NCBI GenBank assembly: GCA_945860285.1
Contig: CAMAQB010000003.1
Location: forward strand, 1 to 64,000
DNA length: 64,000 nt
Reading direction: 5' to 3'
Origin: Akkermansia muciniphila
GTDB lineage: Bacteria; Verrucomicrobiota; Verrucomicrobiia; Verrucomicrobiales; Akkermansiaceae
The first letter of the stretch is position 1. The number at the start of each line of letters is the position of its first letter. The translations under genes and the position numbers were made by a program. This document shows, in pieces, positions 3,013 through 20,388 of the stretch. The notes beneath the pieces are model-generated. The model was not told the DNA's origin, made no database searches, and worked only from the letters and a program-made list of their open reading frames with translations.

Positions 3013-4278
3013 TTAGAGTTCGTTGGTGAAGTCCCTGGTTGTAAGCCGGATGATGGCTAGTGCATCATCGATTTCATCCTTCCTCACGTTCAAGGGTGGC
3101 AGGATGCGCAAGGTTTCCGGTCCGGCCGGCACGGTCAGCAGCCCGCGCGCCATGAGCTTGGCGGCAAGGGTTTGAGCCACGGTCTTCCCTTCGACGGCGG
3201 GGATCGCGGCGGCATTGATGGAAAATCCCAACAGCAGGCCTTTGCCGCGCAGCGCGGTCAATACGTGATGATCCCAGCGCGAAAAAGCATCGCGAATGTA
3301 TCTCTCCATCGCGGCGGCGTGGGCCGCAAGTCCCTCGCGGTGAATGACCCCGAGCACCGCCAATGAAGCGGCGCAGGCCAGCGGACTTCCCCCGTAGGTG
3401 GAGCCGTGCGAACCCGCATTCATCAGGCTGGAGAGGGGAGTTGCGGCATCGATCAAGCGATCCGAAACCCAAAACGCACCGATCGGAAATCCGCCGCCCA
3501 TGCCTTTGGCCCACGAGATGCCGTCGGGTTCGATCTCCGGGCAGAAGGCCCGCCATGCCATGGTTTCGCCGCAGCGACCGAAGCCTGCCTGAACCTCATC
3601 GAAAAAGAGCAACAAGTCATGTTTTTTTGCGAGTGCCGCGACACCGCGCATGAATTCCGGGGTGATGCAGTTGACGCCGCCTTCACCCTGGACCGGTTCC
3701 ATCAAGATGGCCGCAGTGATCGGCGAAATGGCGGATTCCAGGGCATCGAGGTCGTTGAAGGGGCAATAACGAAATCCGGTCAGCAAGGGATCGAATCCTT
3801 CGTGCACTTTTTTCTGCGCCGTGGCCGCCATCGAACCCAGGGTGCGACCGTGGAAGGACTGGCCGAATGTGATCACTTCGTATCGAGCCTCGCCACTGGC
3901 CTGGGGAAGTCTGTGACCGAAACGCCGCGCGGTTTTGATCAAGCCGTCATTGGCCTCGGCTCCGGAGTTGGAAAAGAACACCTTGCCGGGCAGTTGGACA
4001 TGGTCCTCGACGATGGTTCTCGCCAACTCCGCCTGTTGAGGAATTTGATAGAGATTCGACACGTGAATCAGCGTTGCGGCCTGCGCTTGAATGGCCCCGG
4101 TGAGGGCGGGATGGCAGTGTCCGATCGAACAAACCGCGATCCCCGTGCAGAAGTCCAGATAGCGATTGCCGGCATCGTCCCACAAATACGCGCCCTGTCC
4201 TTTGACAGGAACTAACGGAAAACGTCCGTAGGTGGGCAGCACATACTGCGATAATGTCTCGGCTGTATTCATCGGCAA
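3013..4278 (-). CDS. argD: Acetylornithine/succinyldiaminopimelate aminotransferase
   Basis: Class III PLP aminotransferase; FFDEVQAGFGR and SWAKGMGGGFPIGA motifs; adjacent to argF. Confidence 0.92.
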   Translation of the reverse strand: MPMNTAETLSQYVLPTYGRFPLVPVKGQGAYLWDDAGNRYLDFCTGIAVCSIGHCHPALTGAIQAQAATLIHVSNLYQIPQQAELARTIVEDHVQLPGKVFFSNSGAEANDGLIKTARRFGHRLPQASGEARYEVITFGQSFHGRTLGSMAATAQKKVHEGFDPLLTGFRYCPFNDLDALESAISPITAAILMEPVQGEGGVNCITPEFMRGVAALAKKHDLLLFFDEVQAGFGRCGETMAWRAFCPEIEPDGISWAKGMGGGFPIGAFWVSDRLIDAATPLSSLMNAGSHGSTYGGSPLACAASLAVLGVIHREGLAAHAAAMERYIRDAFSRWDHHVLTALRGKGLLLGFSINAAAIPAVEGKTVAQTLAAKLMARGLLTVPAGPETLRILPPLNVRKDEIDDALAIIRLTTRDFTNEL

Positions 4279-4359
4279 GCGATGATCCTAGCGGGTTTGC
4301 GTTCGGATTGCAAGAATGCGATTTGAATCTTTTCGATGCTTCGGATACAATCCGGCCCG

Positions 4360-4902
4360 ATGAAAAAACGAGCGCTGTTTGTGTTTGCGGATGGAGTTGA
4401 GGAACTCGAGTTGATCGCTCCCGTGGATGTTCTGCGCCGGGCCGGTGTCGAGGTATGCATGGCAACCGCGGGTGAGGGGATTCGCGTGCTCAGCCGGGGG
4501 AATGTCACATTTCATGCCGATTGCCTGTTCTCCGATGTCAGCATCCATGACTTTGACATTCTTGTCCTGCCCGGCGGCCCCGGGGTGATTGCGCTGCGCC
4601 GACAAGGATTGCTGACCGTCGTCTTGCAGGAATTCGCCGCCAGTGGTCGACCCATTGCCGCGATCTGCGCCGCGCCTTTGTTGCTTCACGATGCCGGGCT
4701 TCTTGTCGGCAGGCGGTTCACCAGTCATGACAGTTGCTGGGGTGAACTGGCGGAATCCGATAGACAGGATGCGGTGGTTTGCGATGGTGGGATCATCACC
4801 TCCCGTGGCGCGGGCACCGCACTGGAGTTCGGCCTGGTGCTCGTCGGGATATTGTGCGGCAGCACCGCGCGCGGCAAGGTTGAAGGGGAAATCATGCTGT
4901 AA
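4360..4902 (+). CDS. DJ-1/PfpI family protein
   Basis: MKKRALFVFADGVEELELIAPVDVLRRAGVEV..LPGGPG..AAICAAPLLL nucleophile-elbow region. Confidence 0.9.
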   Translation: MKKRALFVFADGVEELELIAPVDVLRRAGVEVCMATAGEGIRVLSRGNVTFHADCLFSDVSIHDFDILVLPGGPGVIALRRQGLLTVVLQEFAASGRPIAAICAAPLLLHDAGLLVGRRFTSHDSCWGELAESDRQDAVVCDGGIITSRGAGTALEFGLVLVGILCGSTARGKVEGEIML

Positions 4903-5010
4903 AGTGGTAGAAAAGTGGTATAACTGCCAACCAAGAGGGTCGCATTTTTTCTTGTTTTTTAGTTGCCCGGGCCCGCCAATTCAAGCAAGTATGAGCGCAC
5001 CAACAAACAC

Positions 5011-5098
<88 letters not shown>

Positions 5099-5452
5099 TC
5101 TGGTCATTTTGTGACCATTCCTGCGTCTTTCGTTGATTCTGCGGGCTTTCGTGCGTCTCTGGATTCGGTTGGTGATGCATGGTTGTGACTGGTTGAACGG
5201 CGATTTGTCAGAAATCCGTTAGAAATCGGGTGTTCATTCTGTCGCGGATTTGGAGTGGATTTGAATCCCGACAAAATCACGCCGTTGCCCGGAATCCGGG
5301 AGTCAGCATGTCTGGTCAGGTTCTCTTCCATCCGTCACACATCTGCCAGATCGGTGCCGTGGATCAAGGACTTTCCATTCGCTCGCAAAAAAAGACTACA
5401 TTCATTTCCTGAGGAGTAATTTATCGCGGGCTCATAAGTGACCTCCACCACA

Positions 5453-8400
5453 TTAAGCGGCCGTCAGCGAATACACAAAATCACTGATCGCACGGCGGAA
5501 GGCCTCGTTTTCGACGAACTGCTTGTAAACCTGTGTGTCGTCCTTCAGCAGCGTGAGCATCACCTTGGCGAGTGCCTTGTCGTGCTCGATGCGGGCGGCT
5601 CCCGGGGTGTTTTCACGGGCGTTACGGAATGCTTCGTTCTTGGCGACAAGCGGAGCGATCTCATCCTTGATGCGGGCGAAGATCCTATCTGAGTCATTGA
5701 AAAGCGTGCCGAACTGCTCGTTGAAGGCTTTTAGGATGTTGCTGAGGCGGTCGAGTTCCGGCTCGGGCTTGCGTCCTCCGCCTTCGACTGGCATGGGATC
5801 GATCTCAGCGTCCTCATCAGTTGAGGCGATCTGAATGGCCTGCTTCTTTTCGACACGGTAGCTGTCCATATCGATGGATTCGAGGATACCTTTGGAAAGG
5901 TCTTCCTCTTTGGGCGCGGGGAGTTTCGGAATCAGCAGATTGAGGAGGACCGAGAGCTTCTCCCACTCCCGGCTGCCATAGGGAAGGATGGAGCCGAGGA
6001 AATCATAGGCGCGGGTGAACACCTTGGCCTTGCTCTTGAAATCCACCTGCCCGTCTTCGTCGAGTTGTTCGAGGTAGGTGGCGACGCAGACGTCGAGGAT
6101 GGGATCGAGCTTCTCACGGCTGGCACCGGCGAGGAAGAGTTCCACGATGCTATCGATCTGCTCCTGCGAATATACTTGGGCCGTATCCAGAGCGAGCTTG
6201 AGGTCGTGGAGTTTGTTGGGGTCCGTCTCTTCACTGAGGATCGTGGTGCGGTAATAGTCGGAAAACGCCTGAGTGACGGTGTCGCTGTTGTTCTGGAAAT
6301 CGAGAACGAAGACATCGCGTTTCTCGGGATGGGCACGGTTGAGGCGCGAAAGCGTCTGCACTGCCTTGATGCCGGAGAGTACCTTGTCCACATACATAGT
6401 GTGTAGCAGCGGCTCGTCGTAGCCGGTCTGGAACTTGTCGGCGCAGATGAGAAAACGATAAGGATCTTCCTTCACCTTGTCTGCGATGTCGTTGCTGGCG
6501 AATCCGTTCAACGAGGCTTCGGTGACTTTCTCGCCTTTGAAATCGAACTCCCCGGAAAACGCTACAATGGCCTGATACGGACTCTTCCGCTCCACAAGGT
6601 ATGTCTTGAAGGCGTGATAATACTGGATCGCTCGCTCGATGCCGCTGCACACGACCATGGCACGTGCTTTGCCACCGATCTTGCCGACGGACATGACCTG
6701 CTCGTGGAAATGATCCACCATGATCTCCGCTTTGAGTTGGATGGCGTGTTCCTGGCTTTCGACGTAGCGGCGCAGTTTCTTACGCGCCCTTTTTTTATCG
6801 AACTCCGGGTCGTCCTCTATTTTTTTAATCAGGCGGTAAAAGCTTTCCACTGGCGTGTAGGAGCGCAGCACATCGAGGATGAAACCCTCCTGGATCGCCT
6901 GCTTCATCGTGTAGCTGTTGAATGGGCGGTGCTTGATCTTGCCTTCGGCATCCGGAGGCAGCGGAATGCCGAATAATTCTAAGGTCTTGTTTTTCGGCGT
7001 GGCGGTGAATGCGAAGTAGCTGGCGGTGGTCAGGAGCTTGCGTGACTTGATGCGCTTTTCTATGGCGTCGTTGATCTCGTCTTCGGGGTCGGTTTCACCC
7101 AGCGCCTTGCTCATGGCGGAGGCAGTCTTGCCGCCTTGGCTGCTATGCGCTTCGTCGATGATGATCGCGAAGTTTTTCCCGGCTCCTTCGCCTTCCATTT
7201 CATCCAGAATGAACGGGAACTTCTGCACGGTGGTGATGATGATCTTCTTCCCGTCCGCGATGAAGCTGCGCAGGTCGCCAGACTTCTTGGCATGACCAAC
7301 AGTGGCGCTGACCTGCATGAACTGTTTGACCGTCTTCTGGAGTTGGTCGTCTAGAATACGACGGTCGGTGACTACGATCACTGAATCGAAAACTTCCTTA
7401 TCTTTATGCTGCACACGAACCAACTGATGAGCGAGCCATGCAATCGAGTTCGACTTGCCGCTACCGGCCGATTGCTGAACGAGATAGCGTTTGCCGACCC
7501 CGAAGTCCTCCACATCGGTCAATAGCTCGCGCACCACGCCAAGCTGGTGGAAGCGCGGAAAGATCTGCTTCAGCTTCTTCTCTCCGGTCTTCTGGTTTTT
7601 CTCTTCGATAATCTGAGCGTAGTTCTCCAGAATATTGGTGAGACTAGCAGGTGTAAGTGTTTCCTTCCACAGGTAGTCGGTCTTGAGTCCGTCCGGGTTT
7701 GGCGGATTGCCCGCACCATCGTTCCAGCCCTTGTTGAAAGGGAGAAACCAGCATGCCTTGCCCTTCAGCTCCGTGCACATCCGGACTTCCGAGTCATCCA
7801 CCGCGAAGTGAACCATGCAGCGCCCAAAGCCGAACAGCTTCTCCTTCGGGTCTCGGTCGCGGCGGTATTGCTCCACCGCGTCCTCCACCGTTTGCTTGGT
7901 GAGGCTGTTCTTCAGCTCGAAAGTGATCACCGGCAGGCCGTTGACGAAGGCTGCCAGATCCAGTGAGCGCCGGGTTTCGTCGAGGCTGTAACGAACTTGG
8001 CGGGTGATGCTGAAACGGTTTTGCGAGAAACGCTCCGCCGCCTTGGCATTGCCGGGGGAAGGCGTGCCGTAAAACATCTCGAAGCGCAGCGGGCCGTCGG
8101 AAATGCCATTGCGGAGCACATCGATCACCCCGCGCTTGCCGATCTCCGAGCTGATGCGGGCGAGGAACTTCTGGCGGGTGATGTTCTTCACATCGCGGTA
8201 ATTCCCGATATTGAGCTTCGCCAGTGTCTCCGGCTGGGTGGACTGGAGAAAGGCGAAAAGTTGGGTAACGTCGACACAGTGCGCCCGGTCATAGGCATCG
8301 GGAGAGCCAGCGTGCCACCCGCTGCCACACGCTTTGTCAGCGGCAATACCATCGGGCGTATCGTGGATCACAGGCTCGCTGGCGGATGAAATTCCATCCT

Positions 8401-8461
8401 CGCCCGTCATGTGGCGCATGATCAGTGTTTCGAGGCCTTTTTCTGTAGTGTCGGTGGGCAT
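5453..8461 (-). CDS. hsdR: Type I restriction enzyme, R subunit (HsdR)
   Basis: 1002 aa; N-terminal nuclease region (VITFELKN), Walker A-like QQSAGSGKS, DEAH (IIIDEAHSSQ), FTATP, SF2 helicase C-terminal motifs. Confidence 0.95.
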   Translation of the reverse strand: MPTDTTEKGLETLIMRHMTGEDGISSASEPVIHDTPDGIAADKACGSGWHAGSPDAYDRAHCVDVTQLFAFLQSTQPETLAKLNIGNYRDVKNITRQKFLARISSEIGKRGVIDVLRNGISDGPLRFEMFYGTPSPGNAKAAERFSQNRFSITRQVRYSLDETRRSLDLAAFVNGLPVITFELKNSLTKQTVEDAVEQYRRDRDPKEKLFGFGRCMVHFAVDDSEVRMCTELKGKACWFLPFNKGWNDGAGNPPNPDGLKTDYLWKETLTPASLTNILENYAQIIEEKNQKTGEKKLKQIFPRFHQLGVVRELLTDVEDFGVGKRYLVQQSAGSGKSNSIAWLAHQLVRVQHKDKEVFDSVIVVTDRRILDDQLQKTVKQFMQVSATVGHAKKSGDLRSFIADGKKIIITTVQKFPFILDEMEGEGAGKNFAIIIDEAHSSQGGKTASAMSKALGETDPEDEINDAIEKRIKSRKLLTTASYFAFTATPKNKTLELFGIPLPPDAEGKIKHRPFNSYTMKQAIQEGFILDVLRSYTPVESFYRLIKKIEDDPEFDKKRARKKLRRYVESQEHAIQLKAEIMVDHFHEQVMSVGKIGGKARAMVVCSGIERAIQYYHAFKTYLVERKSPYQAIVAFSGEFDFKGEKVTEASLNGFASNDIADKVKEDPYRFLICADKFQTGYDEPLLHTMYVDKVLSGIKAVQTLSRLNRAHPEKRDVFVLDFQNNSDTVTQAFSDYYRTTILSEETDPNKLHDLKLALDTAQVYSQEQIDSIVELFLAGASREKLDPILDVCVATYLEQLDEDGQVDFKSKAKVFTRAYDFLGSILPYGSREWEKLSVLLNLLIPKLPAPKEEDLSKGILESIDMDSYRVEKKQAIQIASTDEDAEIDPMPVEGGGRKPEPELDRLSNILKAFNEQFGTLFNDSDRIFARIKDEIAPLVAKNEAFRNARENTPGAARIEHDKALAKVMLTLLKDDTQVYKQFVENEAFRRAISDFVYSLTAA

Positions 8462-8478
8462 ATGAAGGGGTAGTTCGT

Positions 8479-9681
8479 TCAGCTCGCCAATCCAAACATC
8501 GGCCTGAGTTTCCCAGTCCCGACGAGGGATTTCATCACCGTGTAGTCATCGGCCTCAAACCTGACCCGGCCGGCCGGAATGGCTGGACTGATGCGAAGCC
8601 TTTCGGCAAACGCCATGACATTTGCGGTCGGTGTGTTCCGCTGCAACCTGGCGGCTTTCCACAGCTCTTGGGGAATCAAGGTCTCGGTAGCCAGCGCATC
8701 GGCTTCCTGTTCGCACTTGTCCTTCCCGGTTTTCGTGAGGTCGTCGAAAAACGCCTCGATCTCGCCGTGATCCAAATGCAGCGCCACATGCGCGAGTTCG
8801 TGAAACAGGGTAAACCAGAAATTGTCCAAACGGTCGTGGCGGAGGGTGAGAGCCACCACCGGCGAACCATCAGGCAGTTTGAGTGCCGCGCCGTCGAGGT
8901 GGGTTTTGGGCAAGTGCCGCTCACAAATCAGGTGGATGCCACTCTTGTTCAGGAATTCCTTCGCCAGCAACGGTCCGGAATCCAGGTAGCTCAGCCGTGC
9001 CAACTCGCACAGGAAATCGGCATTGACCGTGCCCCGGCGATATTCCGGTAGCGTCTCACGCATCGCGCGGGTCGCCACCCGGATCCGCCAAGCGGCCAAG
9101 GCATGTTCGTCTTGTGTGCCTCCATCCCGCAGGTGCTGCCGATTCAGAGCTGGCACCATGGCGTTCTCGCCCAGCGGCCCCACGAAACGGTTTAAGAGAT
9201 CTTCGAGTTGCGCCTTAGCCTCTGCCACGCTGCCGGAGAAGCCCGCGAACCAACCGCGCTTCACCATCTCCGCCACGGGGAAATGCCTGCCTTGCTGGAG
9301 GGCGGCGTCCGACGGCAGGTCCGCACCGGCTTCCTGGAGCAGCACTTCCGCCGGGATGCCCAGGCCCTTCACCAGATTGCGGATCATGGTGAGACTGAGC
9401 GGTCGCTTGCCGGTGAGCACTTCCGAGACTTTGGGCGCGCTGCCGATGTATGGCACCAGATCTTTCCGCTTCAGCCCTTGCTGCTCCATGCGGAACTTGA
9501 TCGCCTCGATGGGATCGGGCAGGTCGATCGGGTAGGCCTTTCGCTCATACATCTCGATCAACGCGGTCAACAGCTCAGCCTCGTCACCCTCGGGCGTGCC
9601 GGGCTCGGCATCGAAGATTTCGTCGAGCCGCGCGAGGGCGGACTCGTTCTCTTCTTCGGTCTTGATCAGCTTGGCTTTCAT
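8479..9681 (-). CDS. HigA-like HTH antitoxin fused to ImmA/IrrE (COG2856-type) metallopeptidase domain
   Basis: N-term IKTEEENESALARLDEIFDAEPGTPEGDEAELL typical of HigA-type antitoxins; HTH; C-term FTLFHELAHVALHLD (HExxH). Confidence 0.85.
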   Translation of the reverse strand: MKAKLIKTEEENESALARLDEIFDAEPGTPEGDEAELLTALIEMYERKAYPIDLPDPIEAIKFRMEQQGLKRKDLVPYIGSAPKVSEVLTGKRPLSLTMIRNLVKGLGIPAEVLLQEAGADLPSDAALQQGRHFPVAEMVKRGWFAGFSGSVAEAKAQLEDLLNRFVGPLGENAMVPALNRQHLRDGGTQDEHALAAWRIRVATRAMRETLPEYRRGTVNADFLCELARLSYLDSGPLLAKEFLNKSGIHLICERHLPKTHLDGAALKLPDGSPVVALTLRHDRLDNFWFTLFHELAHVALHLDHGEIEAFFDDLTKTGKDKCEQEADALATETLIPQELWKAARLQRNTPTANVMAFAERLRISPAIPAGRVRFEADDYTVMKSLVGTGKLRPMFGLAS

Positions 9682-9974
9682 TAGATTTCCTTCGCGTTGA
9701 TTTTACTGTATTCGGCGTGGGTTCCGACGAAGCGGATGAACATCCGGCCGGAGTTGTAGTGGATTTTGACGATGAGACGGTAGTGGTTGCCTTTGATGTC
9801 GAACACCACCCGGTTACCCGGAAGGCAATCCGCACTGCGGTGAGAGGCCTTGATTTCTGAAAACGACTTCCACGATGCCTGGCAGGCCTCGCGATACCAT
9901 GCGCGGAGGGCCTGCTCGGATGCGGCGTGTTGCTGCCAGAAATCGCGGAGCTTCTTGAGTGAGACGACGTGCAT
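9681..9974 (-). CDS. HigB-like type II toxin
   Basis: 97 aa; LKKLRDFWQQH..ALRAWYREA..W.SF.EIK..; GNHYRLIVKIHYN..FIRFVGTHAEYSKI; immediately upstream of the HigA-like gene. Confidence 0.85.
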   Translation of the reverse strand: MHVVSLKKLRDFWQQHAASEQALRAWYREACQASWKSFSEIKASHRSADCLPGNRVVFDIKGNHYRLIVKIHYNSGRMFIRFVGTHAEYSKINAKEI

Positions 9975-10028
9975 GGATCGTTGTTCCCGGTTTGATTGTC
10001 AATAGAAAGTTCCCGAATGGGTAATTTT

Positions 10029-11408
10029 CTACCCTTCCACCTCCTCCCCTTCGGTTTCCTCCTCGGGGATTTCGGATTCGGGCAGCGGCTCTTCTTCCGC
10101 CTCCTCCGGCAGTTGGGCGGCGGCGGCGCGGACGTCCAGCTTGCCGGTTACCACGTCCGCCGTCAGGCGGGTGCGGTATTCGCGTAACAGGGTGATCTCG
10201 CGCTCGTAGCGGGTGATGACGAGGTCGATGCCGCCGGTCTCCTTGAGAATGAATGATATTATGTCCCGCTGCTCGGTTTCAGGTAGAACCAGATTGGGCA
10301 TCTGCTTGAAGCTATCCCAGTAGAGGCGATTTCGATCGGAAACAATCCCGGTGGATTGGCGGTTCACTTGCTGTTTGTAGAGATCCGTGTGGAACACGTA
10401 ATCGTAGAACTCAGGAACAGTGCCACCCCTTGGCGCGATGACGACATACGCGGGGCTGACCAAGCCATCACACGGCGACACCCCGACAGCACCTTGCCAC
10501 ATGCGCATCGTATTGTATGCCATGTCGCCTTGATGCACCCGTTTGTATTTCGTGGCATCGGCTATCAGCTTTTTGGGACGCCCGAACTGATCGAGTTCTT
10601 CCATCGTGATCCCTGATCGAAGACTCACCTGAAGAACCGGCAACCCCTCAACACCAGATTCGACTCGAAGAGAGAACAGCGCCATGTTTCGCCTCACCTC
10701 CCAATGTTCCGGAATCTCGCCGAGCCACGGGATGCCGGAGTCCTTGAGTTTGACGTTGGGGTCGAGGCCGCGGGTGACGGCGCGGTGGATGATAGCCTGC
10801 TTCTGCTCCTGGAGCAGGGCGATGACCCGCCGCTTCGACCGGATCGCCTTCTCCAAGCGCCCGTTCCAGTGGTCGAGAAAGCGCACGATGGCCGCTTGCT
10901 CGGCGGGGGGCGGGAGGGGAATTGGTGCATCGAGAAACGAGGTGTCGGTCAGCTGAAGTCTGGAAATCCAGACACCTTTGGATCGGACCTGCAGCTCCCA
11001 GTGGAATGCGGAAGAACGGACCAATTCATGCAGATAGCGGGGATTGATTTTGGCCGAAGGGCGACTTCGATAAACGCTGTAGGCGGTGCTGATGATCCCG
11101 TGATGCTGCGACACGCCTAATCCGCCGCCCCAAGCCCAGAGACTGTTGATTACCAAATCTCCTGGCCAGCATAGCTTGTGGCCAGCGTAAGACTCGGCTT
11201 TGAACATCGTAACCTTTGCACTTCTGCGGGGGATTACACCGCGAGCAGAACTAACCGTAAGAAGTTCTTCTTTGCCGTTCTTCGATCGTTCATCGACACA
11301 GAATAAATAAGCCTTCCCTCGCTTGATCACCCAGTGCGCCGGATAGCGCTGTAGCCACGGTAGATCCGACTCCTTGTATTCCGGATACGGTTTGAGATCC
11401 GCAATCAT
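10029..11408 (-). CDS. hsdS: Type I restriction enzyme, S subunit (HsdS)
   Basis: 459 aa; two target-recognition halves (YPAHWVIKRGK.. and IPEHWEVRRNM..) with LPPPAEQAAIVRFLD and LPETEQRDIISFI conserved spacers. Confidence 0.93.
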   Translation of the reverse strand: MIADLKPYPEYKESDLPWLQRYPAHWVIKRGKAYLFCVDERSKNGKEELLTVSSARGVIPRRSAKVTMFKAESYAGHKLCWPGDLVINSLWAWGGGLGVSQHHGIISTAYSVYRSRPSAKINPRYLHELVRSSAFHWELQVRSKGVWISRLQLTDTSFLDAPIPLPPPAEQAAIVRFLDHWNGRLEKAIRSKRRVIALLQEQKQAIIHRAVTRGLDPNVKLKDSGIPWLGEIPEHWEVRRNMALFSLRVESGVEGLPVLQVSLRSGITMEELDQFGRPKKLIADATKYKRVHQGDMAYNTMRMWQGAVGVSPCDGLVSPAYVVIAPRGGTVPEFYDYVFHTDLYKQQVNRQSTGIVSDRNRLYWDSFKQMPNLVLPETEQRDIISFILKETGGIDLVITRYEREITLLREYRTRLTADVVTGKLDVRAAAAQLPEEAEEEPLPESEIPEEETEGEEVEG

Positions 11409-12526
11409 TTAGTTACCTCCTTGGCTACTGCATTTACGATTCTTGCACGAGCCTGCGCACGATCAGCCAATAACTTGTCTTCTCCAGTCTGTTCGAGCCA
11501 TTCCATGAAACGATCCAGCCCGTGGCGGGTGTTGCTCTCATCACGGCAATTTGTGATGAAGGCGAACTGAACTTTCTGGATAGGATCAGCAACGAATACC
11601 CCGAATGGTGCAGACACAAGTGTAGCATCGGGGAAACCCAGCAGTTTGGCTGCCTGCGTTTCGGTAGCCGTCTTGTGGCAGGCAATCACATGAACTGGGC
11701 CTCCTCTTTTCCCTTTGAGAATCGAGGCGTTCTCATGATCCCGAAGAAACGGTTGACCCACGCGCTCCCTTGCAGCGGCAACAGATAATGCCGCAGGGAC
11801 AGCGTGCAATTTCCACAAGATCTCGCGACCATCAAACTTTACCAGTATTTCGTGGCCTTCCTCCTTGGCTCCACTCCGGGAGAGTATCGATTCTCGAAGA
11901 ACACGGATCATTTCTCCCTCCCGTGATGTATAATCTAACCGGGACCAATCAAGTGCAGCTCCGCTATAAAACTTGCCTTTTGCCGCATCACGGACTCCTG
12001 CCTGAACAAGGCCGATAATCGCGTCGTGGAGAGCTTCCTTGATCCTCTTTATTAGATCTTCCTTTGTTTTGACCTCCCCGCCGCGGAACATGCTCTGCTT
12101 CGCAATTTCTTTCTGAAATCGTTGGTTGCGCTGACCGGCTTCATCTTTTCCGGCAGGAATATTTGGTAGTGCAATGAGGCGGACCTTTGCTGGAGCAGTC
12201 GAGAGTCCAGTCATCATTTCAGCATGGCATATCCCGACGCTGCCACCCGTTTTCGCCCATCCCGCGTTCCCGTTGCAGATGATGAGTAACACGTCGCAGT
12301 CCTTTACCGTCTGAATACAGGTATCCCACGAGTCCCACGTTGCGCTACCGGGGGCAGCATCCTCATTGATCCACACTTCAAATGCCTTACTCCCCGCCAC
12401 CTCCATCGCTTCGATCTCGGACTTTATTTCTCGGCGGATCATGGAGAGTGTGGTTTTGCTTCCGGCAGGAAACGCGTCATCGCTCCTGCTTGAAAGCATC
12501 AAACGGATTTTCGAGGATTTTGACAT
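11405..12526 (-). CDS. DUF4062-like protein (TIR-like fold inferred) embedded between hsdM and hsdS
   Basis: 373 aa; IRLMLSSRSD..., W.NEDAAPGSATWDSWDTCIQTVKDCDVLLIICNGNAGW..., followed by a long C-terminal region; ATGA overlap with hsdS. Confidence 0.6.
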   Translation of the reverse strand: MSKSSKIRLMLSSRSDDAFPAGSKTTLSMIRREIKSEIEAMEVAGSKAFEVWINEDAAPGSATWDSWDTCIQTVKDCDVLLIICNGNAGWAKTGGSVGICHAEMMTGLSTAPAKVRLIALPNIPAGKDEAGQRNQRFQKEIAKQSMFRGGEVKTKEDLIKRIKEALHDAIIGLVQAGVRDAAKGKFYSGAALDWSRLDYTSREGEMIRVLRESILSRSGAKEEGHEILVKFDGREILWKLHAVPAALSVAAARERVGQPFLRDHENASILKGKRGGPVHVIACHKTATETQAAKLLGFPDATLVSAPFGVFVADPIQKVQFAFITNCRDESNTRHGLDRFMEWLEQTGEDKLLADRAQARARIVNAVAKEVTK

Positions 12527-12529
12527 GGT

Positions 12530-12646
12530 TCAGGATTTGTCTCCTTTCAGAAGTAATCCCAACATATCTTCAGCGGCTTCTTCTTCCACGAGGATGTCGG
12601 CACGGATTTCTTCCAAGGTGCCGAGTGGCTGGGGCTTGTAGAAATT
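12530..12646 (-). repeat. Diverged duplicate of the hsdM 3' end (within an 84-aa ORF, 12530..12784)
   Basis: NFYKPQPLGTLEEIRADILVEEEAAEDMLGLLLKGDKS vs HsdM C-term HFYKPQPLRTLDEIRADILAEEEAAEGLLGELLKGGNP; 28/38 aa and about 90/117 nt identical by hand, without gaps. Confidence 0.85.
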
Positions 12647-12780
12647 CCGAGGGTGTTGGAATGGTTTCGCTAATGAGCGGTAGCGTGTAATATGGAACGG
12701 ATTGACGTCCATATTAAAGTCTGCGTTGCGCATGGATGAGGATACAGGCCAAACACAAGGCAGGATTGCATACAGTAGGC

Positions 12781-15096
12781 TCATGGATTGCCTCCTTTCA
12801 GCAGCTCGCCCAGCAGCCCTTCGGCGGCTTCTTCCTCGGCGAGGATGTCCGCGCGGATTTCATCGAGGGTGCGGAGCGGCTGGGGCTTGTAAAAGTGGCG
12901 GGTGAAGCTGACTTCGTAGCCGATCTTCGTGGCTCCCTCCTTGACCCAGGCGTCTGGGGTGTAGGGCAGGACTTCGCGTGTGATGAAGGCCTCGATGCCG
13001 CCGTCCTCCAGCAGCGGGACTTGCTCGGTGTCACGGAGGTCACTGTCGGTCTCGTATTCGACAATCATCGGACGGCTCGGCGATCCGTCCCTACCTTTGA
13101 TTTCGTAGAGGCCGTGGAAGGGATCGGGCTTGGCCTTGCCGGGTTTGTGGATCTTGCCGATGACCGGCGGGGCGTTCTCGTCGCGCCAGCTGACGGCTTT
13201 GTAGATCTGCTTGAGATCGGCGGCGGGCAGCTTGATGTCGCCGGATTTTAGGGCTGCCTCGACCTTCTCCCGGAAGAGGTTGTGATCCTCGAAAAGATCG
13301 CCGCCGAGTTCCTCGCGGAGACTTGTGGCGGTATCGACCAGGCGGCCATCACGTTCCCAGGTCTTGGAATCCAGAAGTTTCTTTCTCTTCTTTTCGGGCA
13401 GGCCTTTTTTCTTGGACTCGCCGTCCTCGTCGTCGCCGTCTTCCTCGTCATCGCCCCATTCGTTGAGGCGTTTCTCCAGGGCATCGGCGATTTTCGCGAA
13501 CTTGCGGAACAGATCGTCGCCGAACTCGTCATACAGCACGGAGCGGATTTCCTCGTCGCCGGAGGCGAAGCGCAGGGACTCGATGCGTGGCAGGCTGAGC
13601 TGGCTATGGAGCCGCAGCGGACGCTCGACGACGACTTTCCAGTAACCGAAGGCCTCGTTCGGGAAGAGCTTTGATTCGGGCGTTTCCTTGAAGTCGAGGA
13701 AGGTCTTTGTGATGCGCTCAATGTCATCCGGAGAGAGTTCACAGTTCTTTTTACCGAGGTTTTTGCGGAGCGGCTTGAACCACTGGGAGGCGTCGATGAG
13801 CTGGACTTTGCCTTGGCGGTTCTTCGGCTTGCGGTTGGAGAGCACCCAGATGTAGGTGGCGATGCCGGTGTTGTAGAACAGGTTGAGCGGCAGGGCGACG
13901 ATGGCCTCCAGCCAGTCGTTCTCGATGATCCAACGGCGGATGTTGCTCTCGCCCTGGCCGGCGTCCCCGGTGAAGAGCGAGGAACCGTTGTGGACTTCCG
14001 CGATGCGGCTGCCGAGCGGGGTGTTGTGATTCATCTTAGACACCATGCTGGCGAGGAAGAGCATCTGACCATCGCTGGTGCGGGTGACGAGGGACATTTC
14101 CTCGCCATCGTGCATGACCTTGAAGCGGGGATCGCGCATGCCGTCCTTGCCACCCATGTTTTCGAGATCCTTTTTCCAACTCTTTCCGTAAGGCGGATTG
14201 GCCATCATAAAGTCGAACTCCACGGAGGGGAATGCGTCGTGGGAGAGCGTGGACCACTCGGCCCCGCCGATGATGTTCTCCGCGTTCTCGCCCTCGCCCT
14301 TGAGCAGCATGTCTGCCTTACAGATGGCGTAGGTCTCTGGGTTGATTTCTTGCCCGTAGAGCTGGGCGGCGATTTGCAGGCCAAGATCGGACGCGAGCGA
14401 TTGAAGCGTTTCCTCGCCCTCGGTGAGAATTCCGCCGGTGCCGCAAGCGCAGTCGTAGAGCAGGTAGGTGCCGGACTTGAGTTCTGTAGCGATGGGGCGG
14501 AAGACGAGATTGGTCATCAGCCGCACGGCGTCACGCGGCGTCCAGTGCTCGCCGGCTTCCTCGTTGTTTTCCTCGTTGAACTTGCGGACGAGTTCCTCGA
14601 AGACGGTGCCCATCGAGTGGTTGTCGATGCCGGCAGGGGTGAGGTCGATCTCGGGATCGAGGAACTTGGAGATGAGGGTGCCGAGCGCGTCGGCCTTGGA
14701 GAGGGTGGAGAGCTGGTTGCGGAATTTGAAGTTTTCCAGGATGTCCTGCACGTTGGGCGAGAAGCCGTTGAGGTAGTCCTCGAAATCGGCGAGGAGCTGC
14801 TGCTGGTTGCCCCGGGACTTCAAGTCGCGGAGGGTGAACTTGGAGGTGTTGTAGAACGCGTGGCCGGAAGAGGAGTAAAGGGCGGCGGTCTGCTCGGTGA
14901 TCCCGGCGTCGTCGAGCATCTTGCGGGTTTCCAGCACGGCCTTCTTGGTCGGTTCCAGCACGGCGTCCAGACGGCGGAGGACGCACATGGGTAGAATGAC
15001 GTCCGGGTATTTGCCCCGCTTGAACAGGTCGCGGAGAACGTCGTCGGCGATGCCCCAGATGAAGGAGACGATTTTGTTGTGGGTGGCTTGATCCAT
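12781..15096 (-). CDS. hsdM: Type I restriction-modification system DNA methyltransferase (HsdM)
   Basis: 771 aa; YDCACGTGGIL SAM-binding motif and FMMANPPYGKSW catalytic motif. Confidence 0.96.
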   Translation of the reverse strand: MDQATHNKIVSFIWGIADDVLRDLFKRGKYPDVILPMCVLRRLDAVLEPTKKAVLETRKMLDDAGITEQTAALYSSSGHAFYNTSKFTLRDLKSRGNQQQLLADFEDYLNGFSPNVQDILENFKFRNQLSTLSKADALGTLISKFLDPEIDLTPAGIDNHSMGTVFEELVRKFNEENNEEAGEHWTPRDAVRLMTNLVFRPIATELKSGTYLLYDCACGTGGILTEGEETLQSLASDLGLQIAAQLYGQEINPETYAICKADMLLKGEGENAENIIGGAEWSTLSHDAFPSVEFDFMMANPPYGKSWKKDLENMGGKDGMRDPRFKVMHDGEEMSLVTRTSDGQMLFLASMVSKMNHNTPLGSRIAEVHNGSSLFTGDAGQGESNIRRWIIENDWLEAIVALPLNLFYNTGIATYIWVLSNRKPKNRQGKVQLIDASQWFKPLRKNLGKKNCELSPDDIERITKTFLDFKETPESKLFPNEAFGYWKVVVERPLRLHSQLSLPRIESLRFASGDEEIRSVLYDEFGDDLFRKFAKIADALEKRLNEWGDDEEDGDDEDGESKKKGLPEKKRKKLLDSKTWERDGRLVDTATSLREELGGDLFEDHNLFREKVEAALKSGDIKLPAADLKQIYKAVSWRDENAPPVIGKIHKPGKAKPDPFHGLYEIKGRDGSPSRPMIVEYETDSDLRDTEQVPLLEDGGIEAFITREVLPYTPDAWVKEGATKIGYEVSFTRHFYKPQPLRTLDEIRADILAEEEAAEGLLGELLKGGNP

Positions 15097-15120
15097 AAAA
15101 TTAAAATGCAGAAATCGAAT

Positions 15121-15426
15121 TTAAAGTGACCCCATCGACGGCCTCTCCGCCTCCCAGTTGCCCAGCACCTCGCCGAGGACGACGGTGTAGGTGAGGTTGC
15201 CGTGTTCAAGGTCTACATCGGGGAGGAACTCGTCGTCGAGGGCGGAGAGCAGCGGCTCGATATTCGATTCGTCGAGGCCGGAGCCTTTGAGGATGATCAC
15301 CGTGCCGGCGACTGTTCCATTGGCGAGGTAGTGAAGATCCACGGCGGCGAGGTCCTTGCCATCGCGGATAGCGAGAAAGCGTTCGGACGAGGGTGTGCGG
15401 AGGGTGCGTTTCCAGGTGAGGTTCAT
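15121..15426 (-). CDS. Small hypothetical protein upstream of hsdM
   Basis: 101-aa ORF with ATGA overlap to the preceding DUF4236 ORF and 24 bp from hsdM; same strand. Confidence 0.5.
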   Translation of the reverse strand: MNLTWKRTLRTPSSERFLAIRDGKDLAAVDLHYLANGTVAGTVIILKGSGLDESNIEPLLSALDDEFLPDVDLEHGNLTYTVVLGEVLGNWEAERPSMGSL

Positions 15427-15671
15427 GATAGAGACGTGACGATCCAGTTAGTGAATGCAAGCGAGGCAGGGATGGCGGCGAGCAGAATCAAGCAACCTTT
15501 GCCACGGTACCCCACGCCAGTGCCGGGGATGCTGAAGGCGGAGTAGCGGCGACCACGGGCACTCGTGCCGACGCGGAATCCCTTGCCGCCGACCGAATAG
15601 CCGAGGCCGGATTTGTTCAGATTGACCCGGAACGGCCCGAAGTTGATGGATTTGCGATAGAAAAATCCCAT
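15423..15671 (-). CDS. DUF4236 domain-containing protein
   Basis: MGFFYRKSINFGPFRVNLNKSGLGYSVGGKGFRVGTSARGRRY is a typical DUF4236 N-terminus; C-terminal hydrophobic helix. Confidence 0.85.
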   Translation of the reverse strand: MGFFYRKSINFGPFRVNLNKSGLGYSVGGKGFRVGTSARGRRYSAFSIPGTGVGYRGKGCLILLAAIPASLAFTNWIVTSLS

Positions 15672-15940
15672 ATGCGTTAGTGATTTTATGGAGACAATTG
15701 TTGGCCAGCGGAAGAAAACGAATTCTTTCCCTAGCGGCGCTAACTATTATGCTCAAGTGAGAAAAAGAATCAAGAAGGTTCTTGAAATTCGCTTCATTTT
15801 GGCGTGCCAAATGGTGATTTACAGGCAGAAAAAAGTGCTGAGGTTTCTACGCTAGATATAAAATAAACGAATAAAGTGTCGAATTCCCCGATTTCGCGAA
15901 AGTGCATACAAAACGAAAATGATTTTGAGAAACTATTTGT

Positions 15941-15971
15941 TCATAAAAAAAAACGCTCGATATCGACGAGC
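15941..15971 (-). terminator. Terminator-like hairpin on the minus strand, 5' of the hsd island
   Basis: Reverse complement reads GCTCG-TCGATAT-CGAGC-GTTTTTTTTT. Confidence 0.45.
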
Positions 15972-16271
15972 ACCCAAGTCAAAAATGCATGATTTTATGA
16001 AATTCTATGTTTTTTTTATGAAGCAGCGAACCATCCAATCTGGCAATCTTCACTCGGAACAACGGCGTATGTCGTCCTTGGAAATCGGTGAAAGGCTCGT
16101 CCGGCAAGGGGATGAGTTCGCGCAGGAGGGCACAAAAGCGTTGGGAGGCTTTGCTGACACGTTCGTATTCGGTGGAGTAGGTGGGTGGGTTTTCCCAGTG
16201 CCCTTGTGCGTTTTGTGTTGCCGATTCAGGGTTGACAAAAAATGCCTCGCCACGAAACTGTGCGCGAAGTT

Positions 16272-17204
16272 ATGGAACAAGTGATCATTATTGGTACGGG
16301 GTGCGCGGGATATACGGCGGCCATTTACACGGCGCGGGCCAATTTGAAACCGCTGATGCTTTCGGGCACGCAGCCGGGCGGACAACTGACCACGACCACC
16401 GAGGTCGAAAATTTTCCCGGTCATCCCGAGGGTATCATGGGGCCGGAATTGATGGTGCGCATGCAAAAACAGGCCGAGCGTTTCGGCACGCGCATTGCCT
16501 ACGAAATGGTCGAAAGCGTGAGCCTTCTTGCTGACGGCGGGTTTGCTGTGAAAACCGGATCGGCCAGTTATGAGGCGAAAACCGTCATCATTGCCACGGG
16601 TGCCGCGCCGCGCCACATGGGGCTGCCGAACGAGCAAAGTTTGATCGGTCGCGGGCTGACCTCCTGCGCCACTTGTGACGGGGCTTTTTACCCCGACGTT
16701 CCCGTCGCGGTGATCGGCGGCGGCGACAGCGCCTGTGAGGAAGCTGGATTCCTTACCCGCTTCGCCAGCAAGGTGTATTTGATTCATCGTCGCGACGAAT
16801 TGCGCGCCTCGAAAATCATGGCGGATCGGGCGTTGGCGAATCCGAAGATCGAGCCGGTGTGGAACTCCACGGTGACCGAGTATCTCACCGATGAAAAAGG
16901 CGAGATGCGCGCGGTGAAATTGAAAAACCTGGTCACGGGCGCGGAAAGCGAAATGGACGTCAAATGCGTGTTTGTCGCCATCGGTCACGTGCCGAACAGC
17001 GGCTTTCTGGGCGGGTTGGTGGATCTCGATGAAAACGGTTACATTTTGCAAACCCCCGGCCGCACCGCGACCAAAACTCCCGGGCTGTTTGCCGCCGGCG
17101 ACGTGGCGGATCATTATTACCGCCAGGCGATCACGGCGGCCGGGCAGGGGTGCGCGGCGGCATTGGAAGCGGAACGCTATCTCAGCGAGCACGAAGGGCA
17201 CTGA
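16272..17204 (+). CDS. trxB: Thioredoxin-disulfide reductase
   Basis: [37 protein letters not shown] redox motif, AAGDVAD. Confidence 0.96.
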
Positions 17205-17239
17205 GCGCTTCGGCTGGCTTCAATCAGTTTCGCTCCCGC

Positions 17240-18007
17240 TCAGGAGAGCGAGCCGTTGTGGATGATGTCGAAGAAACTCTGTGCATCGAGTGAGGCACCG
17301 CCGATCAGTGCGCCGTCGATATCCGGGCAGGCCATCAATTCCGCGGCGTTGGCGGGTTTGACGCTGCCGCCGTATTGGATGCGCAGCTTGCCCGCGACTT
17401 CGGGGCCATACAGTTCGGTGATCACGCTGCGAACGAATTCATGCGCATCCTGGGCCTGTTGCGCCGTGGCGGTGACCCCGGTGCCGATCGCCCAGACCGG
17501 TTCATAGGCGACGACCGTATCCTCCATGTCCGAAACCGTAATGTTCTCCAGTCCCTCGGTGATCTGTGAACGCAGGATGCTTTCCAGTTTTCCGGCATTG
17601 CGTTCCTCCAGGGTTTCGCCGATGCAAAAAATCAGCTTCAGTCCGGCCTCGCGCGCTTTTTTCAACTTCGCATTGATCACCGCGTTGGTTTCGCCGAAAA
17701 GCGAACGGCGCTCGCTGTGGCCGACGATCACATGGCGCACGAGGATTTCGCGAAGCATCTTCACGCTGATTTCGCCCGTGTAGGCGCCGTCGTCATATTG
17801 AGAGCAGTTCTGCGCCGCCATCTCCACCCCGCGAGCATCGTTCAGCGATTCCGACAACGTGGGCAGGGAAATGAATGATGCGGCAATCACGATGTCGCTG
17901 GTCTGGCGACCTGTTAGTTTGCTGAGGAACGATTTCACAAACGCCGCGGTGTCGGACGGTCCTTTGTTCATTTTCCAGTTGGCGGCGAAGATCGGGCGGC
18001 GGTACAT
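17240..18007 (-). CDS. tpiA: Triosephosphate isomerase
   Basis: FAANWKMN, VGHSERR, AYEPVWAIGTG. Confidence 0.97.
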   Translation of the reverse strand: MYRRPIFAANWKMNKGPSDTAAFVKSFLSKLTGRQTSDIVIAASFISLPTLSESLNDARGVEMAAQNCSQYDDGAYTGEISVKMLREILVRHVIVGHSERRSLFGETNAVINAKLKKAREAGLKLIFCIGETLEERNAGKLESILRSQITEGLENITVSDMEDTVVAYEPVWAIGTGVTATAQQAQDAHEFVRSVITELYGPEVAGKLRIQYGGSVKPANAAELMACPDIDGALIGGASLDAQSFFDIIHNGSLS

Positions 18008-18058
18008 ATTTTTCGTTAGGGTAAGGGAATGTGTGGAGTGTTGTGGAGGAGGATGATT

Positions 18059-19255
18059 TCAGACTTCGGTCAATGCGGCAACGCCGGGGAGTTCCTTGCC
18101 TTCGAGTAGTTCCAGCGAGGCACCGCCGCCGGTGGAAATGAAGTCCATGTCGTCGTCGAGTTTGTATTTGACCACCGCGGTGACGGAATCGCCGCCGCCG
18201 ACGATGGAAAGCGCGTCGGAGTCGGCCACCGCCTGGGCAATGGCCTTGGTGCCGATGCCGAAGGAGTCGATTTCAAAAACCCCCATCGGTCCGTTCCACA
18301 GGATTGTTTTCGCCGTGGCGATCTCCTTTTGAAATTCCGCAATTGCCACATCGCCGATGTCGATGCCCTCGCTATCGTCGGGAATGCTTCCGCCATCGGC
18401 ATAGGGAGCAGTGACTTCGGTGGCAGCGCCCTCCTTGAATTCCTGAGTGCAGCGCGTGTCTGCCGGAAGCAAGAAGCGTATGCCCTTATCTTCAGCATTT
18501 TTCATGATGTCGAGCGCCAGTTCTAATTTGTCCTTTTCGACCCGTGACTTGCCGACCATGAAGCCTTGCGCCTTGCGGAATGTGTAGGCCATCGCACCGC
18601 CGATGATGAACGAATCGGCTTTTTTCATCAATGCGTTGATCACCTTGATTTTGTCGGAAACCTTCGCACCGCCCATGATGACCAGAAACGGCCGCTCTGC
18701 GTTTTCCAGCTTGTGCACCAGATAGTCGAGTTCACGAGCCATCAAAAATCCCATCGCGCTTTGCTTGACGAAATGTGTGACTCCCTCGGTGGAAGCATGG
18801 GCGCGGTGTGCGGTGCCGAAGGCGTCATTGACGAAAATTGCGGCGTTGCCCGCCAGCTCCCTGGCGAAGTCCGCATCGTTTTTTTCCTCTTGCGGATAAA
18901 AGCGGGTGTTTTCGAGCAACATCACTTCGCCTTCCTTCAGCGCGGCGCGGCGGGCGGCGGTGGCGTCACCGATGCAATCCGTTGCCATGACCACCGGCTT
19001 TCCTAACAACTCGGCAAGCCGCGTGGCTGCCGGTGCGAGCGAGAATTTCGCCTCCAGGCCGTTTTCCGGACGACCGAGGTGCGAGCACAGCACCAGCCTG
19101 GCCCCGCCTGCGAGCAGGTGTTGGATCGACAGCACCGCCGCGGTGATCCGGGTGTCGTCGGTGATCACACCGTCCTGCAGCGGCACATTGAAGTCCACGC
19201 GCATGAGAACTTCCTGGTTGCGGACGTCGAGATTTTGAATCGATAATTTGGCCAT
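18059..19255 (-). CDS. pgk: Phosphoglycerate kinase
   Basis: LMRVDFNVPLQDG, LCSHLGRP, GGAKVSDKI, GGGDSVTAV. Confidence 0.97.
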   Translation of the reverse strand: MAKLSIQNLDVRNQEVLMRVDFNVPLQDGVITDDTRITAAVLSIQHLLAGGARLVLCSHLGRPENGLEAKFSLAPAATRLAELLGKPVVMATDCIGDATAARRAALKEGEVMLLENTRFYPQEEKNDADFARELAGNAAIFVNDAFGTAHRAHASTEGVTHFVKQSAMGFLMARELDYLVHKLENAERPFLVIMGGAKVSDKIKVINALMKKADSFIIGGAMAYTFRKAQGFMVGKSRVEKDKLELALDIMKNAEDKGIRFLLPADTRCTQEFKEGAATEVTAPYADGGSIPDDSEGIDIGDVAIAEFQKEIATAKTILWNGPMGVFEIDSFGIGTKAIAQAVADSDALSIVGGGDSVTAVVKYKLDDDMDFISTGGGASLELLEGKELPGVAALTEV

Positions 19256-19302
19256 GGGCAATTCGGTAAGGTGGATATGACACCAATGTCAAGCCTCTTG
19301 AA

Positions 19303-19336
19303 TCAAGAAATATGACAGTTTTCAGATATTTCTCGA
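19303..19336. promoter_or_regulatory. Imperfect palindrome in the divergent pgk / thioredoxin-family intergenic region
   Basis: TCAAGAAATAT gacagttttcag ATATTTCTCGA; 8-bp perfect core arms, 10/11 when extended. Confidence 0.4.
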
Positions 19337-19380
19337 CAATCAGGGAATCCGCCGCACTATCCCCGCACTCCCATACCATT

Positions 19381-20388
19381 ATGAAAAGAAACACACTCAT
19401 GACCACGGTTGCGTTTGTCTTCGCCTCAGTCAGCGCGCTGCATGCCGGTGGCGAGGGGTGGCAAACCGACTTTGAAGCGGCCAAAAAACTCGCCGCTGAA
19501 GGCAAAAAAGACTTGTTGCTCGATTTCACCGGTTCCGACTGGTGCGGATGGTGCATCAAATTGAACAAGGAGGTTTTTGGGCTCGAGCCTTTTAAAACCG
19601 GCACCAAGGACAAGTTTGTTCTGGTGGAACTTGATTTTCCGCAGAAAAAGGAACTCGAAGCAAAGCTCAAGGAGCAGAACGAAAAGCTGCAGGAACAGTT
19701 CAAGATTCAAGGATTTCCCACTATTCTGCTCTGTGATGCCACCGGCAAGCCCTATGCGAAAACCGGCTATCAACCGGGCGGCGCGGAAAAGTACGTCGCC
19801 CATCTCGACGGGCTGCGTGCGGTGCGGGTCAAGCGCGACAAGGCCTTTGCCGATGCCGATCAAGCGAAGGACGATGCGGCCAAGGCGGCTTGCCTGGTCG
19901 AAGGATTGAAGGGTATCGATGAAGAGTTGGTCGATTCCAGCTACGGCGATGTCGTCGAAAAAATCGGCGAACTCGACAAAGAGGACAAGACCGGATTCGT
20001 GAAAGCTCGCAAAGAGGTGATCGCCAAGAAAGACGCTGCGGAAAAAGCGGAAGCCGACATTCAGGAGTTCATGGGCACCAAAATCCAGCCGCTGATGCAG
20101 GCCAAGGAGTTCGACAAGGCCCTGGCTGCGGTCAAGACCTTCATCAAGGAAAATCCCGACACTCCCGAGGACTTCAAGATCGGCATGACCGTCAACATCG
20201 CTCTCGCCGGCCCGATGGAAAAAGGTGATGTGGAAGCGGCGAATGCCGTGATCGATGGTGTCGTCAAGGACTACCCCAAGAGCGACCTGGCGAAAAACGC
20301 AGATAAGATCAAGGCAAGCATCAAGACCCGCCTCGAGCAAATGAAAGCCAACAAGGTTGACGAAAAAGACAAAGCCGAGGAGAAGTGA
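19381..20388 (+). CDS. Thioredoxin-family secreted protein
   Basis: Signal-like N-term MKRNTLMTTVAFVFASVSALHAGG; KKDLLLDFTGSDWCGWCIKLNKEVF (CGWC). Confidence 0.85.
   Translation: MKRNTLMTTVAFVFASVSALHAGGEGWQTDFEAAKKLAAEGKKDLLLDFTGSDWCGWCIKLNKEVFGLEPFKTGTKDKFVLVELDFPQKKELEAKLKEQNEKLQEQFKIQGFPTILLCDATGKPYAKTGYQPGGAEKYVAHLDGLRAVRVKRDKAFADADQAKDDAAKAACLVEGLKGIDEELVDSSYGDVVEKIGELDKEDKTGFVKARKEVIAKKDAAEKAEADIQEFMGTKIQPLMQAKEFDKALAAVKTFIKENPDTPEDFKIGMTVNIALAGPMEKGDVEAANAVIDGVVKDYPKSDLAKNADKIKASIKTRLEQMKANKVDEKDKAEEK

Follow-up and report, generated by a model that had tools for sequence, protein, structure and literature searches.

The 3' end of hsdM is present twice in a predicted type I restriction-modification (R-M) operon of Akkermansia muciniphila, once at the end of hsdM itself and once, in diverged form, directly ahead of a DUF4062 gene that is lodged between hsdM and hsdS. 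The operon lies in a stretch of 64,000 nt, which is referred to here as the window, and copies of the hsdM tail also occur beside other guest genes in other type I loci. We read the repeat as a scar left when two related type I R-M loci recombined at a cargo slot that separates hsdM from hsdS; most likely, an incoming hsdM 3' end with its cargo displaced the resident tail, which is still joined to DUF4062. This account is probable in our judgment, though held with some reserve. How defence genes enter type I operons and are swapped within them is not settled in the cited literature, and hsdM 3'-end copies beside cargo would be physical marks of such exchange.

The operon and its repeated hsdM 3' end

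By its content of hsdM, hsdS and hsdR, the locus is predicted to be a type I R-M operon. It is read in the order hsdM, an 84-aa open reading frame (ORF) with the second tail, DUF4062, hsdS, a PD-Lambda-2 pair and hsdR, with guest genes both between hsdM and hsdS (slot 1) and between hsdS and hsdR (slot 2). The features are as follows.

12781..15096, minus strand: hsdM, 771 aa, with HsdM_N and N6_Mtase
12784..12900, minus strand: final 39 sense codons of hsdM itself, first repeat copy; HsdS-docking C-terminal tail (role per PMC9613975)
Inside 12784..12900, minus strand: Shine-Dalgarno-like AAAGGAGG
12530..12784, minus strand: 84-aa ORF, with an ATGA start at the hsdM stop, in frame through the spacer into the second tail
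12650..12780, minus strand: spacer between the tail copies, 131 nt, starting like a cargo gene start (ATGAGC)
12533..12649, minus strand: second, diverged copy of the hsdM tail, either displaced or imported, with 89/117 nt and 29/39 aa identical
11405..12526, minus strand: DUF4062 protein, 373 aa, predicted TIR-like, slot-1 cargo
10029..11408, minus strand: hsdS, 459 aa, with an ATGA overlap with DUF4062
9681-9974, minus strand: PD-Lambda-2 A, HigB-like toxin, slot-2 cargo between hsdS and hsdR
8479-9681, minus strand: PD-Lambda-2 B, HTH + M78 antitoxin-like, slot-2 cargo between hsdS and hsdR
5453..8461, minus strand: hsdR, 1002 aa

HsdM matches N6_Mtase and HsdM_N in Pfam (3.5e-52 and 9.7e-23, respectively) and MTase_I in PADLOC (1e-257); HsdS matches Specificity_I in PADLOC (5.6e-94), with Methylase_S of Pfam under its cut-off; and HsdR has HSDR_N and a SWI2/SNF2 motor according to Pfam. 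The adjacent PD-Lambda-2 A and B genes were recognized by PADLOC (6.1e-37 and 5.8e-143). A search of sampled genomes from the genus gave no near relative of the window hsdM at the thresholds used, suggesting that the locus is mobile. The slot-1 guest scores 22.3 bits against DUF4062 in Pfam (cut-off 24.7, E 1.6e-4), and a plasmid homologue with 49% identity to it is annotated as DUF4062. Its AlphaFold2 model (pLDDT 86, pTM 0.52) has TIR domains as the top PDB matches, the best single TIR domains reaching a TM-score by target of 0.53-0.57, and the protein is thus predicted to have a TIR-like fold. E103 in the motif GICHAE is invariant across 40 aligned DUF4062 homologues and is a candidate for the catalytic Glu. 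No DUF4062 homologues were found among viral contigs.

The repeat search returned a direct repeat of 117 nt (12527-12643 versus 12778-12894) with 78% identity at a spacing of 251 nt, the longest direct repeat within 6000-20000. In codon register on the minus strand, the copies are 12533-12649 and 12784-12900, and they align gap-free with 89/117 nt and 29/39 aa identical. The gap-free repeat described in the initial annotation is thereby confirmed, its slightly different counts (90/117 and 28/38) stemming from a register that took in the stop codon. The own hsdM tail reads RHFYKPQPLRTLDEIRADILAEEEAAEGLLGELLKGGNP and the second tail reads RNFYKPQPLGTLEEIRADILVEEEAAEDMLGLLLKGDKS. Their differences fall on codon positions 1, 2 and 3 as 7, 4 and 17, corresponding to a dN of 0.14 and a dS of 0.97. 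The similarity is far above chance: the terminal 100 nt of hsdM match the hsdM-hsdS interval with blastn E = 1e-17, and the 84-aa ORF is scored by an hsdM-tail HMM with E = 2.6e-9. Across the 3.7-Mb genome there is no third copy of the tail. Since the two copies are only 78% identical, mis-assembly is unlikely.

The 84-aa ORF has the geometry given in the initial annotation, that is, its ATGA start overlaps the hsdM stop at 12784-12781 and its stop at 12530 leaves 3 nt before the DUF4062 ATG at 12526. It matched no Pfam family, and its PADLOC MTase_I match (E 0.015) is confined to the tail part. The 131-nt spacer has no homologue in hsdM, in the fetched loci or in 96 relatives, and the part of the protein that it encodes has no match among plasmids. 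The ORF is possibly a translational bridge from hsdM to DUF4062.

Cargo slots and hsdM-tail copies in related loci

A cargo slot between hsdM and hsdS, which had been suggested from the window alone, is borne out by the different cargo genes that related loci hold at the same place. Of the mapped loci, 41 have both hsdM and hsdS (L148 repeats L041), and in about 30 of these at least 200 bp lie between the two genes, 29 of them being distinct; the guests include DUF4062, the DUF1016/YhcG nuclease, GmrSD, RhuM, PRTase-CE, an SF1-type helicase, an AlbA/RecG-C protein, TIR, Hypoth_Ymh, PDDEXK_3 and others. A genome-wide scan for DUF4062 yielded 57 loci, three of which have the order hsdM-DUF4062-hsdS: L041 (Verrucomicrobia), L044 (a Cyanobacteria MAG) and L063 (a Flavobacteriales MAG), the taxon names being those of the MAG records. 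These three are unrelated loci, and most of the remaining DUF4062 loci lie outside type I loci of this kind. Slot 1 of L041 holds a GmrSD (DUF262) gene downstream of DUF4062 (3849-5672), giving two stacked guests, and the 3' end of DUF4062 carries a Shine-Dalgarno-like stretch for this downstream gene. In L120 (G066:C4, ~212485-213593), the DUF4062 gene is split across two frames and adjoins a TIR-like gene.

Slot 2 holds PD-Lambda-2 in the window and in L104, Xre/RES in L063 and DarTG-like genes in L126, a Meiothermus plasmid. The A/B pair of L104 sits between hsdS and hsdR exactly as in the window. In L126 (Meiothermus taiwanensis plasmid pMtWR-220), slot 1 is filled as well (hsdM-DUF262-hsdS), and the genes ahead of hsdR encode DUF4433 (DarT-like), a macro domain (DarG-like), an AAA ATPase and DUF4276. 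In L123, a Sphaerotilus plasmid, a Tn3-family transposase gene stands directly ahead of the last 65 hsdM codons (4918-8108); hsdM is apparently truncated, and DUF1016, hsdS and hsdR follow downstream.

Most hsdM genes have a Shine-Dalgarno-like stretch in their 3' end, and an ATGA overlap with the next start is frequent; several guests have a 3' end of the same kind ahead of hsdS. Such a shared end design would let guests be exchanged with translation unbroken, which fits the translational coupling of hsdM and hsdS described for EcoKI (PMC3510504). We suggest that the slot owes its plug-compatibility to one short tail, which HsdM needs intact for binding HsdS and which also carries the ribosome-binding site of the following gene.

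Copies of the hsdM tail recur beside other cargo. Inside the hsdM-hsdS interval, L115 has a copy of 81 nt (95%) after DUF1016, L130 one of 251 nt (85%) ahead of the Hypoth_Ymh gene, and L102 one of 59 nt (80%) ahead of a DUF1016 relic; L155 and L156 have copies of 20 and 30 nt between DUF1016 and the hsdS start. The last two look like the product of one common event, and their second copy matches the native hsdM-hsdS junction of the cargo-free loci L103 and L151. In a tiling control, the terminal 100 nt of hsdM were repeated in 6 of 29 cargo loci, and the other 19 hsdM tiles gave four weak matches in all, the extension of the L130 copy aside; repetition is therefore a property of the hsdM 3' end. 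As for hsdS 3' ends in slot 2, no copies were found at the nucleotide level except one 22-nt match in L108, with weak tblastx matches in three loci. The tail copies vary in their upstream limit, have their downstream limit at or near the end of the tail, and are closest to the hsdM of their own locus. The sample is small, amounting to about four to five independent events including the window, with loci mainly from one phylum; similar scars in about four other lineages suggest a general route for the exchange of passenger defence genes.

Further details of these loci were recorded. Between hsdM and the second tail of L130 (reverse complement 8853-10914) lie two opposite-strand genes that run against the operon direction, one of them encoding an AAA ATPase like AbiEii-type proteins. 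A 65-aa ORF ahead of the TIR gene of L130 (reverse complement 12262-12459) ends in VQIGY...LALEKESEEFL and was considered as a degraded second hsdM tail; this was a resemblance by eye, and the candidate was dropped when the tail HMM gave no match. Ahead of hsdS, L155 and L156, which belong to two genera, share DUF1016 and the short hsdM-end copy, as well as a similar intergenic stretch upstream that has the look of an inverted repeat.

Origin of the second tail

The process that we favour would start with a closely related locus supplying DNA that comprised the 3' end of its hsdM and some other cargo gene. One joint would be homologous, in or upstream of hsdM, and the other would be illegitimate, immediately ahead of the tail of the resident hsdM. 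On this view, hsdM would now carry the incoming 3' end, while the resident tail would have been pushed downstream together with its old neighbour DUF4062, so that the general product would be, in order, the incoming hsdM 3' end, the incoming guest, the leftover resident tail and the resident neighbour. In the window, the incoming cargo may since have been lost or may never have been complete, leaving the 131-nt spacer; the lost cargo is a conjecture, because the spacer is without an identifiable source. It also counts against this account that neither a donor nor a cargo-free sister of the window locus was found in the sampled genomes of the genus at the thresholds used. Ribosomes would still reach DUF4062 by stop-restart coupling through the 84-aa ORF, which opens with ATGA at the hsdM stop and shares the frame of the displaced tail. 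Homology on one side only would account for an upstream limit that varies among the copies and a downstream neighbour that stays fixed, for the close relationship of the two tails and for the native joint in L155 and L156; copies nearest to their own hsdM are expected because the recombining partners would be close relatives. The same structure would arise with the opposite polarity, in which tail and DUF4062 came in and hsdM with another cargo was resident. Within a four-helix bundle, it is the C-terminal tail of HsdM that binds HsdS, and assembly depends on it (PMC9613975); a need for hsdM to retain an intact tail after each exchange would be explained by this.

A tree of hsdM tails pairs the second copy with the window's own tail as sisters (support 98/95), and AU tests reject its grouping with the tails of L041 (p 0.0006), L063 (0.007), L044 (0.019) or all three (8e-5). 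The tree was built on no more than 108 nt, and its branch lengths, 0.31 for the second copy and 0.012 for the own tail, may be distorted by unequal codon usage. By comparison with other tails, about seven of the ten amino acid differences look derived in the second copy, which has therefore been under weaker constraint. In simulations, an omega of about 0.2-0.3 for the second copy fitted ~40 times better than an omega of 1. Neutral decay would lead one to expect ~15 amino acid and 12 third-position differences, against the observed 10 and 17 (P 0.003-0.006). Both facts fit a second tail that was at first functional and later came under relaxed constraint, and divergence of this purifying type is what tails with such a history may be expected to show.

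A second account, less likely than the displacement described above and in our view rather doubtful, is the import proposed in the initial annotation, namely that a tail of a second hsdM joined to DUF4062 came from a related type I locus and landed downstream of the resident hsdM, beside or in place of an earlier cargo. The slot and the three loci with the order hsdM-DUF4062-hsdS, one of them from Verrucomicrobiota, speak for it, and so does the joint, which counts for displacement just as well. The second tail is joined to DUF4062 by a stop, 3 nt and ATG, close to the 2 nt of the true hsdM-DUF4062 joints in L041, L044 and L063, whereas the present hsdM ends in an ATGA overlap as with other cargos; the second tail, and not the present one, therefore looks like the old partner of DUF4062. 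GC3 is also low in both DUF4062 (0.53) and the second tail (0.56) compared with hsdM (0.82), and the codon usage of the second tail is closer to that of DUF4062 than to that of hsdM. However, GC3 of DUF4062 is below that of hsdM in L041, L044 and L063 too; composition therefore gives no polarity and was dropped as proof of import. The donor part of the proposal fared worse. The tree and AU tests reject a donor among the known hsdM-DUF4062-hsdS loci, so that it would have to be an unsampled close relative, and the sister position of the second copy comes close to the origin from the local hsdM that the annotation itself had named as speaking against import. In 933 kb around DUF4062 homologues, hsdM tails ahead of DUF4062 were confined to type I loci, and a free-standing cassette of tail and DUF4062 is hence not seen. 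The copies of L155 and L156, finally, are better explained by a displaced native tail.

It is improbable, to a further degree, that the tail was copied in situ, that the spacer came between the copies and that the second copy has been decaying since. The sister position and the almost complete restriction of change to the second branch, including the derived amino acids, agree with local copying and fast drift, though differences in codon usage inflate the contrast between the branches. Against this stand the poor fit of neutral decay and the preference for an omega below 1. Simple tandem duplication, a recent case of which the earlier note had argued against from the divergence, does not fit: the copies are neither adjacent nor parts of a unit homologous throughout, the spacer is unlike hsdM, and whole cargo genes lie between the copies in other loci.

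A selected small protein, acting as a free HsdM C-terminal tail that would dock on HsdS or link it to DUF4062, is very improbable. The frame is open across the 45-codon spacer and the tail, omega is below 1, and the tail of HsdM is the helix by which it binds HsdS in the bundle needed for assembly (PMC9613975); but the whole ORF has no homologue in the fetched loci, plasmids or 96 relatives, the tail residues are altered relative to HsdM (H2N, R10G, G28D, E32L), and the copies of L115 and L102 are not neat small genes. Least to be expected is the fuller version in which the expressed tail would enter the HsdS four-helix bundle, limit or tune methyltransferase assembly and tie the TIR-like DUF4062 effector to the restriction complex, a scar turned regulator.

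Comparison with known systems

Some integrative elements restore the 3' end of their target gene, leaving a tRNA or protein gene 3' end duplicated on either side of the insert and the gene intact. The repeated hsdM tail resembles this in that the hsdM 3' end is duplicated around an insert and hsdM is intact; it differs in that the copies vary in length (117, 81, 251, 59, 20 and 30 nt), with no fixed att core. No integrase was found among the slot-1 cargo proteins given to Pfam, a subset of the ORFs. An att-type site is thus not indicated.

Closer to the displacement that we favour is homology-facilitated illegitimate recombination (PMC3240628), in which one homologous and one illegitimate joint would likewise put the cargo ahead of a remnant recipient tail whose length varies. 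That process is known from transformation and conjugation experiments, whereas here it is deduced from structure; that it was judged too rare in E. coli to explain the dimorphic loci there (PMC3240628) counts against our proposal. If the reading holds, hsdM homology may serve as an anchor for loading new antiviral genes, and the scars offer something to search for and to date, as well as a way to extend the list of cargo genes between hsdM and hsdS, a form of guilt by embedding.

The guest itself is comparable to Swarozyc, a DUF4062 TIR-like NADase family in phage defence described in a 2026 preprint as portal-activated and acting by abortive infection (PMC13174449). Common to both would be the DUF4062 domain, which in the window protein scores just under the Pfam cut-off, a TIR-like fold, a conserved Glu and a patchy spread near defence genes; the window protein differs in being a guest between hsdM and hsdS, and it is at most a candidate member of that defence system.

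Unrelated defence or toxin genes inside hsd operons have been described repeatedly: PrrC in the EcoprrI type I operon (PMC3874165), RloF and TgvAB in type I R-M operons (PMC11411939), and DarTG2 in a type I operon for which a recombination hotspot was suggested (PMC12255303). A phrase search of the open-access literature for guests between hsdM and hsdS gave only the EcoKI fusion paper, and no report of hsdM-tail copies was found there. Where a position is stated in the cited cases, the guest lies between hsdS and hsdR, whereas the main slot of the window is between hsdM and hsdS. That type I operons harbour defence genes is known; the hsdM-tail scars are new as far as we found, and in the loci described here a repeated hsdM 3' end would be the mark of exchange.
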